Assembly (NCBI GenBank): GCA_015146655.1
Contig: VKHL01000028.1
Coordinates: 62,001-126,000 of the forward strand
Reading direction: 5' to 3'
From: Ochromonas danica
Taxonomy: Eukaryota > Sar > Chrysophyceae > Chromulinales > Chromulinaceae
DNA length: 64,000 nt
Shown here piece by piece: positions 7,201 to 62,221 of the stretch. Numbering within the stretch: the first letter of the stretch is position 1; every line of letters begins with the position of its first letter. A model generated the notes under the pieces. That model had not been told where the DNA came from, did no database searches, and worked only from the letters and a program-made list of their open reading frames with translations. Position numbers and translations under genes: made by a program.

Positions 7201-10200
7201 TCCAGCATTTCGTACTGTGGAGTTTGATTCAAACACAATGAACATGGCTGAAATTACTGTACCAACTGCGGAAACTGCTTCTGTTTCTTTCTGGCTAGAC
7301 CTGCTCGTCAGGTCTGGACATCATGTTATGCTGGCTGGACCGGCTGGTACCGGCAAGACTCAACTGGTGAACGGCTTACTTTCTCAACTCCATCCTGACA
7401 ATCATATCCACACCACCGTGAATATGAATTTCTACACGACTGCTACTGTGTTGTTAACAAGTCTGGAACCTATGCTGCAGAAGCGCACTGGTACGACGTA
7501 CGGACCTCCAGGATCTGCCAAGCTTGTATACTTTATTGACGATCTCAATCTCCCCGAAGTCGATCTTTATGGAACTCAAAGTGCTATCGCTTTGCTGCGT
7601 CAGCATATTGATTATGGTCATTGGTATGATATTCAAAAGCTCACACTGAAGACAGTTGACGATTGTCAATATATTTCGGCATTGAATCCAACCGCAGGGT
7701 CTTTTACGGTAAACCCTCGTCTTCAGCGTCACTTCAGCTGCTTTTCAGTGGGTATGCCGAGCGCCAGTTCGTTGCTAACTATTTATCAGACCTTCTTGGA
7801 CGGACATCTCGTGAGCCAAGGCTTCAATGCCACCGTGCAAGCCATCTCTTCAACTTTAATCAAAGGTGCACTGGCGGTCCATAAAGAAGTGAGCGAAACA
7901 TTCCGCAAGACAGCTGCTAACTTCCATTATGAATTTAACATTCGCCACTTGGCTAACATATTCCAAGGATTGCTAGTGGCTTCCTCTCATACTTTCAAAG
8001 ACCCTGAGAAGTTTGTCTATCTTTGGATGCATGAAAGCGAACGTGTCTATGGTGATCGACTGGTAGATTATGATGACCTTGATAAGCTCAAGAAGATTAT
8101 GCAAAATCAAGCTCGTCGCGCCTTTCCCCAGTACAACATAGCGAGGTTCTATTTATCTGGGGGAGGTGTCAAGGCCGACCCGCTAGTCTTCTGTCATTTT
8201 GCCGATGGTTCTACCCAGGGTGGCGATGAGCTGCCCTATGATCAAGCTTTGAGTATCAATGATCTGCGAACGACGTTAGAGGCATCACTTGATGAATATA
8301 ATGAAGTGAACGCTGTTATGAATCTGGTTCTCTTTGATGATGCAGTTCTTCATGTCGCCCGTATTGTCCGCATTGTAAAGCAAACCGGAGGCCACGCGCT
8401 TCTTGTTGGTGTAGGTGGAAGTGGTAAGCAATCATTGGCTCGACTAGCAGCTCACGTATGCGGTCTGTCTGTTATGCAAATCATGGTCAGTCAGAATTAT
8501 TCCTTGCTGGACTTCCGCACGGACTTGCAGTCCATGTACAACAAAGCTGGCATCAAGCAGGAGGGTGTGCTTTTCTTGCTAACAGATACTCAGATCAGCC
8601 ATGAGAAGTTTCTGATCTATCTGAACGACCTCTTGAGCTCTGGAAATATCCCTGATTTGTACACGAAAGACGAAAAGGATGGTATTATTAATGGCTTGGT
8701 CAACAAGGCGAAGAATGCCGGCTATTCTCCTGAACCAGCTTCGGTGTGGAAGTATTTCATTTCGAAAATCCGCGAGAATCTTCATTGTTGTCTTTGCTTT
8801 TCGCCAGTGGGAGGGGGTCTGCGCGTACGCGCTCGAAGATTCCCTGCATTGGCCAGTTGTACTGTCATTGATTGGTTCCAACCGTGGCCAGAACAAGCTC
8901 TCTCATCAGTGGGGAAGAGGTTCTTGTCTCAAACAGAGTTGGGTGATGCAGAAGTCACTAAGGCCATTGAACATTTCATCCCCAGTGCATTCTTAGCTGT
9001 GAATAAAATGTGCAAGAGCTTTGCAGCGGCGGAGTCGAAATATGTCTATACCACACCCAAAAGCTACCTTGAAATGCTCAAACTTTATATCAACATGCTT
9101 GCCAAGAAGCGTGCCGCCACTGACAAGAGCATTGAACGCCTTCGCCATGGTATTGAGAAACTACAAAAAGCAGCAGAAGACGTTGTTGAATTGGAAGCAA
9201 ACCTCAAAATAATGCTCGAATCCGCTGAAGAAAAGCGTATAATGGCAGAAGGGATGGCGGAAAAGGTTAACGCAGAACGTATGATGGTTGAACAAGAAAA
9301 TGAGAATGCCAAGGTTGAAGCTCAAAAAGTCGCTCAGATTCAAGCAGAAGTCTCTGCCAAACAAGCAGATGCTTCCAAGGATCTTGAACAAGCAGAACCT
9401 GCTCTTATGCGCGCAATGGCTGCGCTGGATTCCTTGGATCGAAAGGACTTAGGTAATTGTAAGACAATGGCTAAACCTCCTCCTGGTGTGGAAGATATCT
9501 TTAGTGCAGTGATGGTATTGCTAGCTGGCATCAATCCCAATATTCTTGTGCAGAAGAATGGAAAAGTACGAGAAAAGGAGCGCACTTGGGACTATGCGAA
9601 GAAGGCTCTTTTGGGAAATGTCAACAGCTTCTTGGAAGAGCTCAAATCCTTCAAGCTGCATATCGATGAAGGTTCTGTTCCAGAGATGAACTGGAAGGAA
9701 GTGCGACCATTCCTACAGTTGGAGCATTTCTCGCCTGAGATTATTGAGAAACGAAACTCAGCAGCTGCAGGTTTATGTTCATGGGTTATTAACATTGTCA
9801 ATTACTATGACATTGTTCTGCAAGTGGAACCCAAACGTGTGGCTTTGCGTGAAGCGAACGAGTCCTTGCGTGTCGCGAATGAACAACTCACTGAGGTGAA
9901 GAATCGTGTCCAAGCCCTGCAAATCAAATTGGATGCCTTGACTCTAGAGTTTAATGTGGTCGAAGCACAGCGTTTGGAAGCACAAATCATTGCGGAGAAA
10001 GGAAAAATGAAGTTGGAATTAGCCAATAGGTTGACGAATGCTTTGGGCTCAGAGAAGATTCGCTGGGGAGAGGGTATCACACGACTTCGCACGGAACGCA
10101 CGCTTCTGGTTGGAGATTGCCTTTTGGCGGCTGCTTTCATCAGCTACATTGGACCATTTACAAAGTCGTATCGTGAGCATCTTATGGACGGAACATTAAT

Positions 10201-55308: not shown

Positions 55309-57759
55309 ATGGCCACCTCCGTTGAATCACGACACAATATTCTCAACATCAACGTGGGCATCTTGGGCCATGTGGATAGCGGCAAGACCTCTCTAGTGAA
55401 GGCGCTCTCAACCTCGCTGTCAACCGCGGCGCTGGACAAACACCCACAATCGCAAGAGCGAGGCATCACTCTGGACTTGGGCTTTTCTTGCTTCACTCTG
55501 CCACTGCCTCAACACCTCCAAGAAAGGGCGGGTGAGGATTCTCTGGTTGACACCTTGCAGTTCACTTTGGTGGACTGCCCCGGGCACGCCTCTCTCCTGC
55601 GCACCATCATCGGAGGGGCGCAGATCATCGACATGATCGTGCTCGTTATCGACGCAAACAAAGGCATTCAAACACAGACTGCAGAGTGCATCGTCATCGG
55701 AGAGATCACCACGCACTCCCTTGTCATCGCGCTGAACAAAGTCGATCTCATTCCAGAGGCCGAGCGACAGGAAAAGATCGACAAAGTCTCTAGGCGCATT
55801 CGAAAAGCCTTGTTTGGCTCCAAGTTCGCGGATGTAAAAATCGTTCCAGTTTCAGCAGCAGTGGGGGGAGAGCGGGTAGCTGCTGTCGGTGCGGGAGGAG
55901 CCGCCGGGGGGTCCATCGATTCTCTAGGCATTGATAACCTCGTCAACCAGCTGAAAGAGATGGTTCGGCGTCCAAATCGCCAACTTCTTCTCCCTTTCCT
56001 CTTCGCCATCGACCATTGCTTTCCCATCAAAGGCCACGGAACTGTTCTCACTGGGACGGTGCTCAGCGGGAGAGTGGCGGTCAACCAAGTCATTGAAATT
56101 CCTCATTTGCAGCTCACACGAAAAGTGAAGAGCATGCAGATTTTTCATAGAGCCGTAGAGAGTGCAGGTCAAGGAGATCGAGTGGCCCTTTGCCTCACTA
56201 ACCTTGATGCTCGCCTATTGGAACGAAGTCTTGCAGCGGCTCCAAACACGCTGCCTTCCTTTTCCGCGGCGATAGCACTTGTCCGCAAGGTGAGATTCTT
56301 CCGAATGGTGTGTCGAAGTGATAGTCGATGTCACATCTCCATCGGTCACCATACTTCGCTGGCGAAGGTGACCTTCTTCGGAGGCAAACAACTTCAAAAT
56401 GGACCAAGTCGCCGTAAAGAGGGACTGCAGAATGACAAAGAGAGAAGGAAAGAGTCAGAATGTACTAGTGTTCAAGCATTGCATGGATATTATCATCGTC
56501 TCTTTCCTGCTATTGATTATCTGCCAAATGAAGACTTCGAATACCAAGATGCAATCCTTGACGCCGAGAACTCTGAGGGGATGAAGGGTGGTCATGACAA
56601 TGAGGAGATGACCAATAAACATGAGGGACGGGGGCCAGAAGGTGAGGAGGAGGAGGGAAATGGAGAGAATGGGCCAGTGCAATGGGTACTCTTGCAGTTC
56701 CAGCAATCTTTACACTGTCCTATAGGCTCTCTCGTGATTGGTTCTCGCTTGGACACGGACACCTCTGATGCGAGAGGGCCTGGTGCACATTTGTGTCGCT
56801 TGGCCTTCTATGGCCCCATCAAAGCTATCGTCGCTCTTCCACAAAATGGAAATAGCGGCAGTGTTGCACTTCCTTCTGGCGTAACCTCATTACCTCTGTC
56901 TTCTCTAGGAGTGTTTCAGTGGAAAGAGAAGCGCTGTGAGGTGCTCTCACTATCTGATCTTCGTGCAAATGGGATTTGCTACGAGGCAATAGCGTGGAAG
57001 CTCTGCAAAGACCGTGCTTCGCTGCAGCCATTCCTGGGGATGAGGGTCCGAACCGCAGAGGGTCGCAGAGGAGTCATTCTTGCCGCATACGGTGCGGAGG
57101 GACAGTTTCGAGTCAAGTTTCCTCGTGGGGCTCGAGTTGAAATCGGCCATTCGCTCATCTTTCGCTATAAGAAGTACGTATTCAATAAGACTCGATTCAT
57201 CGAGCAGCAGGAAGACTCCGAGAGTGAGGAGGAGAAAGTGGAAATAGTCGAGCCGCTGTGCGCTGTCGAGAAAAGAGAAGATGCTCTTCCCAACAAGTTT
57301 GGCGAAAAGCACAAGAGGAAATCTTCACAATCTGTTCCTCTTCCTCCTGCTGCTGCTGCTGCTTCCGCGATCTCTTTAGCACCAACCCCCTCACCCCCTC
57401 CTATTGTTCCAACAAGTGGAATCTCTACGGCAACGGCCCCCCAGAAAGAGGAGGAAAGGGAAGAAGAAGAACCTGCGGGTGAGAGGAGAGAAGGCACGAT
57501 TGAGAGTATCAAACCCGATCCTGATCTCCCCTCGAATGTCATCGCTGTGGTGCAAGGCGCCTTCCGAATGGAAGAAAATGTGAAAGGCTTCGTGGGCAGT
57601 GCAGTGCGAGGGCCTCGCGGCGCCAAGGGGACACTCGTTGCTTCCTTTGGAAAGCTTGGTAAGTGCAAAGTGCGATTGTCTGGTCTCGACAATCCTGAAG
57701 CCCAAGCACAAGTCATTGGAGCGACAATAACAATATTTGCTGCGCAAAAGAGCACGTAG
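55309..57759 (+). CDS. EEFSEC: Selenocysteine-specific translation elongation factor
   Basis: Delivers selenocysteinyl-tRNA to ribosomes reading UGA with a SECIS element. 816 residues, intronless. The GTPase domain is unmistakable: GHVDSGKTSL near residue 20, ERGITLDLGFSCFTLPLP near 50, DCPGHASLLRTIIGGAQIID near 93, and NKVDLIPE near 144. The P-loop is followed by the eEFSec-specific LGFSCF motif. Domains 2-3 (DHCFPIKGHGTVLTGTVLSG, KVKSMQIFHRAVESAGQGDR, GSRLDTDT, CRLAFYGP) match human EEFSEC. Domain 4 contains KRYVF-like KKYVFNKTRF near residue 625. A glutamate/glycine-rich insert near 425-460 is extra. After a low-complexity linker, a second domain-4-like segment ends the protein (about residues 755-800). 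Its neighbours are unrelated. A secure call. Confidence 0.96.
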   Translation: MATSVESRHNILNINVGILGHVDSGKTSLVKALSTSLSTAALDKHPQSQERGITLDLGFSCFTLPLPQHLQERAGEDSLVDTLQFTLVDCPGHASLLRTIIGGAQIIDMIVLVIDANKGIQTQTAECIVIGEITTHSLVIALNKVDLIPEAERQEKIDKVSRRIRKALFGSKFADVKIVPVSAAVGGERVAAVGAGGAAGGSIDSLGIDNLVNQLKEMVRRPNRQLLLPFLFAIDHCFPIKGHGTVLTGTVLSGRVAVNQVIEIPHLQLTRKVKSMQIFHRAVESAGQGDRVALCLTNLDARLLERSLAAAPNTLPSFSAAIALVRKVRFFRMVCRSDSRCHISIGHHTSLAKVTFFGGKQLQNGPSRRKEGLQNDKERRKESECTSVQALHGYYHRLFPAIDYLPNEDFEYQDAILDAENSEGMKGGHDNEEMTNKHEGRGPEGEEEEGNGENGPVQWVLLQFQQSLHCPIGSLVIGSRLDTDTSDARGPGAHLCRLAFYGPIKAIVALPQNGNSGSVALPSGVTSLPLSSLGVFQWKEKRCEVLSLSDLRANGICYEAIAWKLCKDRASLQPFLGMRVRTAEGRRGVILAAYGAEGQFRVKFPRGARVEIGHSLIFRYKKYVFNKTRFIEQQEDSESEEEKVEIVEPLCAVEKREDALPNKFGEKHKRKSSQSVPLPPAAAAASAISLAPTPSPPPIVPTSGISTATAPQKEEEREEEEPAGERREGTIESIKPDPDLPSNVIAVVQGAFRMEENVKGFVGSAVRGPRGAKGTLVASFGKLGKCKVRLSGLDNPEAQAQVIGATITIFAAQKST

Positions 57760-57911: not shown

Positions 57912-60900
57912 CTACAAGAGTTGGATAGATTTTCCTCCTCCACTCACAATAAAATCTCGAGGGCACTTCCTTCGCAAGAGAGTGTTGTAAACTTCTCCCG
58001 CAGGACGCAGCAAATGCACCGTGCTTGTCATTTTGTGCTTCTTTGGACTGTAAATGACAGTGGGAGGTAATAGACGATGTGTCGAGATGTCTCGCTTATG
58101 GATAATGTACATCTGCCACTCCTCACTTGTTTCTCCTTGTGTTGCTTGCGCATCTTTGGCCTGTGCGGGTTGAGCTTTGAAATAGGCCCCCCAGGATGAA
58201 GAAGACAGGATGTAGATGATGCGTCGTCCCATCCAGACTTTGGGGAAGCTCTCGTCACCCATAAGAACTGTTTGCAACACATCGTGTTTGGTCTGCACTG
58301 TGATATCGATCGTCACATCTTCTTCGTCCTTCAGTGCAGCAGCGACATTATCAAGGTGAAGTCCATCCTGTGCTTCAATGAGGACAGTCGGAATATTAAT
58401 TGTCTGGCGCCAGAGCTCCTTGTCACTATTCAAAGACCCTTTGCCTGCCATGATGAACAAGCCATCCTATATATACTCCTCTTGTCAGTAACGATCAGTA
58501 TTCTAAAAGGAGGCAGAGGGCTCACATCATGGTTGCGGATGAGAAGAGCTCGAGCGCCAGCCTGTTGTGCGACGAGTGCTTTCTCTTCAAAGAGGCAGTC
58601 TCCTCGTCTCACCATCAGCATCTTTCCCGCCACTTCCTCTGCAGGGACAGGTTTTGAAGAAACTTGAGCGCTTGAAGACACTGTTGTGGGAGAGAGAAAG
58701 CGTTTGATCAGGCGTCTCCAGAGCTCGTTGCCACCCGATGCTACAACAGAAGAGGGGGAAGTTTGCAATCCAACCTCTGCCTTGGAAGAGCCTTTCCCAC
58801 TGCCACCAATGTTCTCTGAAGCTGTGTCCTGTTGCGAAGATGAGAGTAGCGGGCTACAAAGTGCACGAGGCTGAGCAGGAAAAACCTTAAGTGATCCGCT
58901 GACTGACAAACTGTCTTGGGGTCCAAAAGTGCCCAAAGAACACGCCCTGCGACACACCAGTTGTTCATGAGATGCAAGATGAATGTAGTGTAAACTCGCT
59001 TACCGCGACCAAGAGGAGGAAGCAATGGAAACAGTGCATGTGGTGAGATGGTTATGCAGTGTGCCCATCACAAGACTCTCTTGTGATGATGACAAATCTG
59101 CTTCCCGCACGAGGACAGCTTGCTTGTCTCCATTGTATATGTCAATGAGACGACGATCAAGCAAGGATTCAATACTGAATCCGTCTGCGAAGACTTGCAC
59201 GTGAAAGTCGCCCAAGACACCCTGTTACCACACCAAGTCCAGACAACAATATCAGCAACGAGACGAGGAGCAGAACAGACTATTCAAGTATTTGCGCAGC
59301 GCTACTCCAATTCTAATAAATGAGATGAAACTCACTTACCAGATTAACATCGACCTTCTTAATCGGTGCCATGCGATGGCGATGACGTTTCGTTGTCGCA
59401 GAAGGAGAGGCTGGCGTTGGGCTGTTGCTCGAGGAGGACGACGAGGTGGCGCTTGTCGCTTCTCGTGGACACTTCGCAGAAAGACCATCAGCTATAGCCA
59501 ACTTATCCGAACTACGATCATAACGAAGATAGAAGCTCCGAATCCACCTCATAGCTCGCGTTTTCACATTGGACGAGATAATGGGCGAGGAAGAGGAAGC
59601 GGCCTTGGTGTGTGATGTGGAGTCGTATGAAGGCGGCAAAGAGTGGAGGTAATGCGCTCTTGGACAAAGTAGCAAGAGTACTGGAGATTTTTCGGAATTC
59701 CTTTTCTTTTGCTTCTTTGCAAATTTCCTGCTAACTTCCGCACCTTGTCGCTCGCGCTGTTCCTCTCCCAGCGGTGTCATTTGTCGCTTTCCCAGTGCAC
59801 TTTGAGAATGTAGACGCTGAAGACTGACCACATCCAAAGGATGTGCCTCGGTCGTAAAGAGAAATGGTCTGCTATGCATTGCCAAAGCTCCTCCGCCCTC
59901 ATCGAAGAGCAGGAAAAGGTACTTCAGCGTCTCAGACAAAAAATAGGAGGGCATGCTATCGGTTAACAGCCCAGCATGTAAGTCTTCTACTGAGGCGAAG
60001 CCACAATCTGTACGTAACGAGGTCTCCATCTTTTCCACTGCTTGCTGCGCAGCGGAGAGCCAAGATCGATCTCGACTGCCTCGATAAAGAAAGTATGTCG
60101 CCTCGAGCAACTCAGGGCGGAGAGGATACTGAAGATTGCCATTGTTTTGACCATCCAACCAAGAGAGATAGTCCACTTCCTCTGGTAGGAAGCCTGACAG
60201 GTCTCGTGCAATGGCGTAGAAGGTGTTGACCTGCCGCGAGGCTGCAACCATTCGCCCTAATTGAACCTCCAGACCTGGCCAGAAGGCGTCCAATGACTCC
60301 ATGCGCTTCCTTTGCACCTTGCCGCTAAACATGTCCACGTCATGAAACCACTGGTCTTCAAGGATGACAAAGGTCTTGACAGCCTCATAGGCTTGAACAA
60401 ACATTTCCAGCAGCGGAGTGGTGGACTTTTCCGTCGCAGGCACAGACAGATCGGAATTAGATGCCAATGATGGATTGGAGGGAGAGAACTGTGCTTGAAG
60501 ACCAGGCAAAACAGATCCCTTGAGCAAGTATTCATAGAAGGAGTCGCTGTTACTTCCCTGGGACAAAGATTGTATTAGAAGAAGCAGCAGCAGCACTATC
60601 AAGGACAATCAGATAATTACCACGCCTGACACTGTTTCATGCCAGTGGCCAGTATCTGTGGCAATGTGCTTGCCAACAAGATGATGTACTGAGCGACGAT
60701 CAAAGAGTGCTTGAAGGGCCCGAGAAGCTGCAAGACTGTACTTCGCCTCTCCTGTAAGCAACGACAACGTGTGGAACTCCAACAGCAACGATCCCGCCCC
60801 AGCTGTGGAGGCCACTTTCGTCTCACCGCGAGGAACACCTAGAAGGTACCACAACAGAAGTCACCCTTAAAGGTGTTGGTGTTTAAGTAAGAAGAAAATA

Positions 60901-62221
60901 TGAAAATACCGTGGCGAAGGTTAACAGTGCCATAAGGAATGCCCTACAAGATTTTAAAGACAGTTAGGTTTCTCAACATAAAATAAACCTCATACTGTAC
61001 TCACTGTTTTAGTCTGGAATGCAGGAAGTAGACGATCGGCGAGGTCAACGGCCAGTTGCAACAGCTCTCCTTCATAGCTGTGGCCTCCCGCATTCTGGTG
61101 ATCCTCTCCCTGTGACACATAGAGAAGATGATGAGTCAAACGAGATTGCATCAGGCCAAGATAACCAAATATAGGCTCACGTAGATGGAGAGGAGGGGAT
61201 CCAAGGCAAGGAGGTGTGCAGACAAGAGTCCTCCCAGCACGCGAATGGTCGTCTCGAAGACGCTCACGTTAACATCCAAATCAAACCCCTTGCTCACTGG
61301 ATAAACTTCAACGATCAAACGATCCACAGCTCGACGAAACTCACTGTGGTTACCAATGACAACAAGTGCGTCCAGTGCATCAATAAGTGTCACGGCAGGC
61401 AGCTTGACAAGATCGAAGTTGCCGCCCTCACAGCTCAGAGGCCGGAGCTCGCCCTGTGGGAAGGCATGGGTCATATAGGAGTCATAGGCATGGTAAAACA
61501 TGCGCAACGTGCGATTTTTGAGACTTTCTTGCTCCAGCTCAGAGATGATTTCGATCTTTCTTCCTGTCTCCTTCCTGCCCCTCCTCTCTTGGTTTAACTG
61601 AGAGACGTTCATTGCCGATACTCCGATCGATCGATCGAGGCACACAGAGGACGAACAGACAACTATCTCTCTTAAACAAGGTTGCGGCTCGGAAACTCTC
61701 AACAGCCACAGCGACGGCGAAGAAGGCGAGGAGGAGGAGAGCAGATGTGTTAGCCTCTGTGCCGCCACTGCGGTCTTCGAAGACTCGGTAGGGCAACACT
61801 GGACCACGACTTCTGTCCGAAAGTGCCGTTCTTCTCCTTCCCTTTGTCCCTCCTCTGGTGGCGGGATAGCGCAAGTTGGCTCAGGCAGAGGTGAGAGATA
61901 GACTTCTCTGTCGGGCAGGGAGAGATCGGGTCGATACTCGCCCAGGCGGTCCACTCGACGGATTTGGTGACTCACTGGATGATAGGATACACGCTGAATA
62001 GATCGCCCAAAGCAGATAAGCCAGCTCCTTTCACCCAGTTCTTGGGTCTGACTCAGAGTCTGACTCTTGTCCTGCACATCCAGACAGCTCTCTCTCAGCT
62101 GCAGCACTGCCTCATTCAGAGCCTCCCAGTCTGCGACCTTCGGCAAATAGCCTGTATCGGAAAGCATAATACTGCCGAAGAGGAGGCAGAAGAGGCTGAC
62201 ATAGAAGATCCACAATATCAT
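57912..62221 (-). CDS. EDEM-type GH47 mannosidase with N-terminal MRH lectin-like domain and C-terminal PA domain
   Basis: Trims mannose from misfolded glycoproteins for ER-associated degradation. Eight exons (61181-62221, 61005-61109, 60910-60943, 60621-60838, 59340-60557, 59004-59221, 58526-58946, 57912-58466) join in frame to 1269 residues; introns are 57-118 bp. ATG at 62221 starts a signal peptide. Residues 46-195 resemble the OS-9/Yos9 MRH domain: six cysteines in the right order (46, 70, 117, 142/143, 182, 194), SWLICFGRSIQ, RLGEY, and SEPQPC. GH47 runs about 235-720: MFYHAYDSYM, catalytic acid E258 in GELRPLSC, TLIDALDALVVIG, NVSVFETTIRVLGGLLSAHLL, PYGTVNLRHGV, LQYPLRPELLEATYFLYR, and the calcium-binding TEAHP. 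A PA domain lies at about 1045-1135 (KMLMVRRGDCLFEEKALVAQ). GH47 plus PA is EDEM3 architecture; the MRH domain is not normally part of it. No KDEL-like tail is seen. Confidence 0.88.

Follow-up and report, generated by a model that had tools for sequence, protein, structure and literature searches.

Gene organization of the locus

We analyzed a stretch of 64,000 nucleotides from Ochromonas danica (bases 62001–126000 of contig C28; hereafter, the window), which contains an EDEM-like gene encoding a predicted mannosidase. Genome searches covered 31.19 Mb in 337 contigs. The predicted protein carries, in order, a hydrophobic N-terminus, a degenerate MRH-like region, a GH47 domain, and a PA domain (Table 1). 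Glycan-dependent endoplasmic reticulum-associated degradation (ERAD) is commonly presented as a relay, in which EDEM writes an alpha-1,6-mannose signal and OS-9/Yos9 reads it. The first-pass annotation of this DNA proposed that the two activities are joined in one chain as a product-reading mannosidase.

We chose the splice points manually, keeping the GH47 and PA motifs in frame. All seven introns are of the GT-AG type, with lengths of 57–118 bases, and the spliced frame of 1269 residues is open. The open frame of exon 1 runs for 391 codons and takes in the hydrophobic N-terminus, residues 46–195, and GH47 up to its 107th residue. Since residues 46–195 and the start of GH47 share this exon with no in-frame stop between them, the fusion of an MRH-like region to GH47 in one open reading frame (ORF), as originally described, holds at the level of the gene model. 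Among the 15-residue segments starting at positions 1–260, only those starting at 1–8 had a Kyte-Doolittle mean above 1.6. Because strong hydrophobicity was restricted to these segments, an EDEM that enters the endoplasmic reticulum (ER) from this gene should carry residues 46–195.

Table 1. Coordinates of the EDEM-like gene and its predicted domains in the window
Feature	Position	Strand	Basis or remark
Whole coding gene, 8 exons	57912..62221	minus	1269 aa + stop; hand-set GT-AG introns, open spliced frame
Exons 1–4	62221-61181, 61109-61005, 60943-60910, 60838-60621	minus	
Exons 5–8	60557-59340, 59221-59004, 58946-58526, 58466-57912	minus	
Residues 1–21, hydrophobic N-terminus, likely signal peptide or signal anchor	62159..62221	minus	Kyte-Doolittle windows
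Residues 46–195, degenerate MRH-like domain (likely), 8 cysteines	61637..62086	minus	Reciprocal match in own genome, alignments, model scores
Residues 241–708, EDEM-type GH47 alpha-mannosidase domain, exons 1–5	59832..61501	minus	Pfam PF01532, PDB matches
Residues 1045–1123, PA domain, exons 7–8	58353..58648	minus	Pfam PF02225

The mannosidase part

A Pfam search with the spliced protein identified GH47 (E 3.2e-96; 323.5 bits against a cut-off of 22.9) and, after it, PA (E 5e-14). No other family was detected at E 1. The best PDB relatives were the alpha-1,2-mannosidase of 29te/9tpa (29te, E 9.5e-73) and then EDEM1 (8zpw, E 3.9e-61), whereas ER mannosidase I (1fo2) ranked lower (E 1.1e-40). 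This ranking places the GH47 domain nearer to EDEM/Htm1 than to ERManI or Golgi ManI. E323, D471, E615, and T702 align with the motifs FEST, DSYYEYL, LRPE, and TEAHP of human ERManI; we take the first three positions to be the catalytic Glu/Asp/Glu of GH47 and the fourth to be the Ca-binding Thr. EDEM1 and 29te also have cysteines in the columns of C264 and C651. Animal EDEM3, by description, likewise has GH47 followed by PA, and the window enzyme combines this order with the EDEM-type cysteines and the conserved catalytic positions. The Pfam domains and the EDEM-type PDB matches support the EDEM3-like identity assigned in the first-pass annotation.

The genome search with GH47 detected three places, two within the window gene and one on contig C164. 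Since the C164 protein, the only other one, carries a Laminin_G_3 domain N-terminal to GH47, the window gene is the only EDEM-like gene found by this search. The C164 gene is located at L013:3036-5579 on the minus strand, and Laminin_G_3 is concanavalin A-like. The two GH47 genes detected thus both carry an N-terminal domain that belongs, or likely belongs, to a lectin-like family.

Probable MRH ancestry of residues 46–195

The cysteines of the region are at positions 46, 70, 117, 142, 143, 182, 189, and 194. C46, C70, C117, C142, C182, and C194 occupy the conserved cysteine columns of MRH domains in order (the 6f99 sequence in the alignment begins after its first cysteine). This six-cysteine layout, C-[FY]-G-R-x-I-Q (OS-9), LG, and EPxxC are common to the region and the MRH domains of OS-9, Yos9, and XTP3-B (ERLEC1). 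We found the layout and the motifs CFGRSIQ, LGEY, and EPQPC at the places previously given for them. The region differs from these domains in its long inserts, and its two extra cysteines are common to the first MRH domain (MRH1) of an OS-9/XTP3-B-like protein encoded on contig C208 of the same genome.

In a whole-genome search with residues 46–195, the sole non-self match reported was this C208 MRH1, and the reverse search from C208 MRH1 landed on residues 46–195. The eight cysteines of the two correspond in order. MRH ancestry is likely because the only non-self matches are reciprocal and the eight-cysteine layout is common to both. A model built from 10 MRH domains scored the region at 11.9 bits, a value reached by none of 5000 free shuffles and none of 5000 shuffles with cysteines fixed. 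The model from six PDB domains alone gave 5.0 bits, which 19 of 5000 free and 8 of 5000 cysteine-fixed shuffles reached. The pooled counts were 0/10000 and 27/10000, respectively. An earlier run of 2000 shuffles gave 0 and 7. The MRH likeness appears to be moderately above chance.

Several results weigh against MRH ancestry. Residues 1–228 did not match PF07915 (MRH) at E 10 in a search whose filters remove most matches above approximately E 0.1. The genome search with the MRH family detected five places, and the window was absent among them. The hhalign match of the region was short. Two single-sequence AlphaFold runs on window stretches both gave a mean predicted local distance difference test score (pLDDT) of about 35; the second model was all-beta but, at a mean pLDDT of 34.9, too poor for use, and its strands were not interpreted. 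The earlier assignment of residues 46–195 to MRH is retained as likely ancestry on the reciprocal match and the cysteines.

Ligand-binding positions

Binding residues were assessed by aligning residues 46–195 with 10 other MRH domains. The ligand residues of OS-9, which we take to be W117, W118, Q130, R188, E212, and Y218, fit its chain numbering. Because CFGRSIQR lies ungapped on CYGRHIQQ of OS-9, the ligand Gln column (Gln in 10/10 other domains) corresponds to R77. Q76, the glutamine put forward in the first-pass annotation, stands one residue early and was rejected. Similarly, TEVVVQC lies ungapped on AEVRFLC of OS-9 and VEVHIQC of C208 MRH1, so that the Arg column (9/10) falls on F134. 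R135 or R132 had been suggested as the arginine; both were rejected, R135 being one residue late. E178, the proposed glutamate, does stand at the Glu column, which is Glu in all 10 other domains. The Tyr column (Tyr in 10/10) is occupied by R184 and the columns of the WW pair (WW in 3/10) by E64-R65, in agreement with the earlier remark that the WW pair and the final Tyr are not conserved. Only E178 is kept among the six canonical ligand positions, or among the four contact residues Gln, Arg, Glu, and Tyr; five of the six differ from the OS-9, Yos9, and XTP3-B domains. According to passages of PMC3332353, human OS-9 owes its alpha-1,6-mannose specificity to the two Trp, and lectin binding by Yos9 depends critically on R200.

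Separate MRH proteins and glycan genes in the genome

A separate OS-9 gene, the existence of which was a point raised with the original proposal, is present on C208. Its product has two MRH domains, and the second (MRH2) has W, W, Q, R, E, and Y. Since MRH2 keeps all six ligand residues, the genome apparently holds a separate, intact MRH reader. Matches to ALG3, Glyco_transf_22, and UGGT were also found, and they suggest the usual glycan precursor.

The C208 gene occurs in two inverted copies (L010:2577-4357 and 7906-9494), with the ORFs approximately 3.5 kb apart. The copies are near-identical, the acidic tail being 64 residues shorter in one; they may represent either a real duplication or an assembly artefact. 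Besides the standard glucosidase II beta gene on C159, a further glucosidase II beta-like gene lies on C90 (L012:1832-3955); it has long Ser/Thr runs and a weak MRH match of 22.6 bits, below the cut-off of 27. Contig C8 (L011:2794-3492) encodes a small protein that combines a single MRH domain with an N-terminal hydrophobic stretch.

Discussion

We consider that the window gene probably encodes an EDEM3-type ER mannosidase that gained an MRH domain related to that of OS-9/XTP3-B, and that this domain lost most of its mannose-binding residues and now serves in docking or positioning. On this reading, the most likely task of the GH47 part is to trim misfolded glycoproteins of their alpha-1,2-mannose. 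The MRH-like part, presumably a worn copy related to MRH1 of the OS-9/XTP3-B-like protein, would most likely retain a disulfide-bonded beta fold. Its function in cis would most likely be a non-canonical one, in which it docks to substrate or ERAD partners or holds the catalytic domain in position. The exposed alpha-1,6-mannose would be read by the separate OS-9-like protein. The role of the MRH-like part, the ER location, and the enzymatic activity are predictions from sequence.

EDEM3 is presented in parts of PMC7926307 as four modules (GH47, IMD, PA, and IDD) with no MRH, whereas the window protein has an MRH-like region before GH47. The same source reports that the PA and disordered domains of EDEM3 modulate client turnover and are dispensable for trimming. 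Since these domains modulate turnover without being needed for trimming, accessory domains on enzymes of this type are known to have roles beyond catalysis. In sections of PMC12170172, yeast Mnl1 exposes alpha-1,6-mannose and pairs with Pdi1 via its C-terminal domain; the MRH that appears there is an OS-9 assay probe and not a part of Mnl1. Sugar binding by XTP3-B is itself disputed: in portions of PMC6272264, flow cytometry showed its C-terminal MRH to bind trimmed glycans, but frontal affinity gave only marginal affinity for M9. Glucosidase II (alpha GH31 and beta MRH) and the gamma subunit of GlcNAc-1-phosphotransferase likewise attach an MRH to a glycan-processing enzyme. However, their MRH is on a separate subunit, whereas that of the window gene would be in the same chain as a GH47 enzyme.

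Product reading, in which the fused MRH binds the alpha-1,6-mannose exposed by GH47 through Q76, R135, and E178 and holds or hands on the product, now appears quite improbable. Q76 and R135 are each only one residue off the canonical places, E178 is in place, and taking C143 instead of C142 as the canonical cysteine would bring R135 into register. Glucosidase II is a precedent for an MRH in the service of glycan trimming, although its MRH sits on a separate subunit (excerpts of PMC6272264). However, C208 MRH1 has the same CC pair and places its Arg at the column of F134, the WW pair and Tyr are gone, and an Arg stands where all 10 other domains have the ligand Gln. Because five of six ligand positions differ and the separate OS-9-like lectin has all six, product reading is unsupported. 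Only a small chance may be given to a rebuilt site that holds or senses the product, by which a single molecule of this algal lineage would both write and read the ERAD signal beside a conventional OS-9.

It is unlikely, although less so, that residues 46–195 are not an MRH at all, but an unrelated, partly low-complexity extension with cysteines, the likeness of which arose from chance and reader selection. The unmatched Pfam family, the weak score of the PDB-only model, the short hhalign match, and the low-confidence structure models fit such an extension. The codon score of residues 46–200 was also weakly coding, barely above zero (0.017 bits per codon, best of six frames), and was not taken as strong evidence for this reason. 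In contrast, the genome search used the region itself and was unprimed for MRH, yet its sole non-self match was an MRH gene, reciprocally, with eight cysteines in the same order. The chance that the N-terminal part belongs to another transcript or is spliced out, leaving a mature EDEM without it, seems remote. A Met at residue 204, between the MRH-like part and GH47, would allow for this. However, a start there would lack a strongly hydrophobic signal, and a single open frame spans both parts; the linker between them is stop-free, and its frame scores best of six despite a slightly negative codon score (-0.033). Moreover, the upstream neighbor, a TCP-1-type chaperonin by eye, is on the opposite strand.

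Even if its reader is degenerate, a natural fusion of both domain types would point to EDEM and MRH acting close together, and it would offer a single-chain system for testing how substrate, enzyme, and MRH fold are arranged. Should the MRH-like domain not be a lectin, it would be a case of an MRH fold retained for a purpose other than reading mannose in the canonical way.

Relatives and genome context

Three scans of a viral contig collection gave 7, 23, and 62 pattern matches, none of which was confirmed. Among prokaryotic genome contigs, none of 59 pattern matches was confirmed, and a further scan gave 203, with one confirmed. This was a GH47 from an Acidobacteria metagenome-assembled genome (479-aa ORF; L020:6861-8300) with no MRH by eye; it is 41% identical to the searched EDEM-type C-terminal segment and may bear on the history of GH47. 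Since these collections were viral and prokaryotic, the lack of a fusion relative in them says nothing about eukaryotes. A GH47-MRH fusion was not described in the open-access titles and abstract openings searched, and it may well be annotated elsewhere. In the portion of PMC7864949 covered, EDEM, OS-9, OS9, and ERAD had 0 occurrences.

Light-harvesting proteins gave 47 matches in the genome, one of which is on the contig of the window; by these sequences, the source is a photosynthetic eukaryote. One of the proteins matched 324 PDB chains. Among the best 60 listed, the multi-repeat LHCI of 9vfj was at the top, and among single-domain chains, XLH, FCPI, and VCPI proteins came next. These matches hint at a red-lineage plastid. 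The window also contains, at 55309-57759 on the plus strand, a gene for the selenocysteine-specific elongation factor eEFSec (Pfam GTP_EFTU, euk_SelB_III, and eEFSec_4th). This gene makes it likely that the alga produces selenoproteins, and an in-frame TGA could mask some of them.
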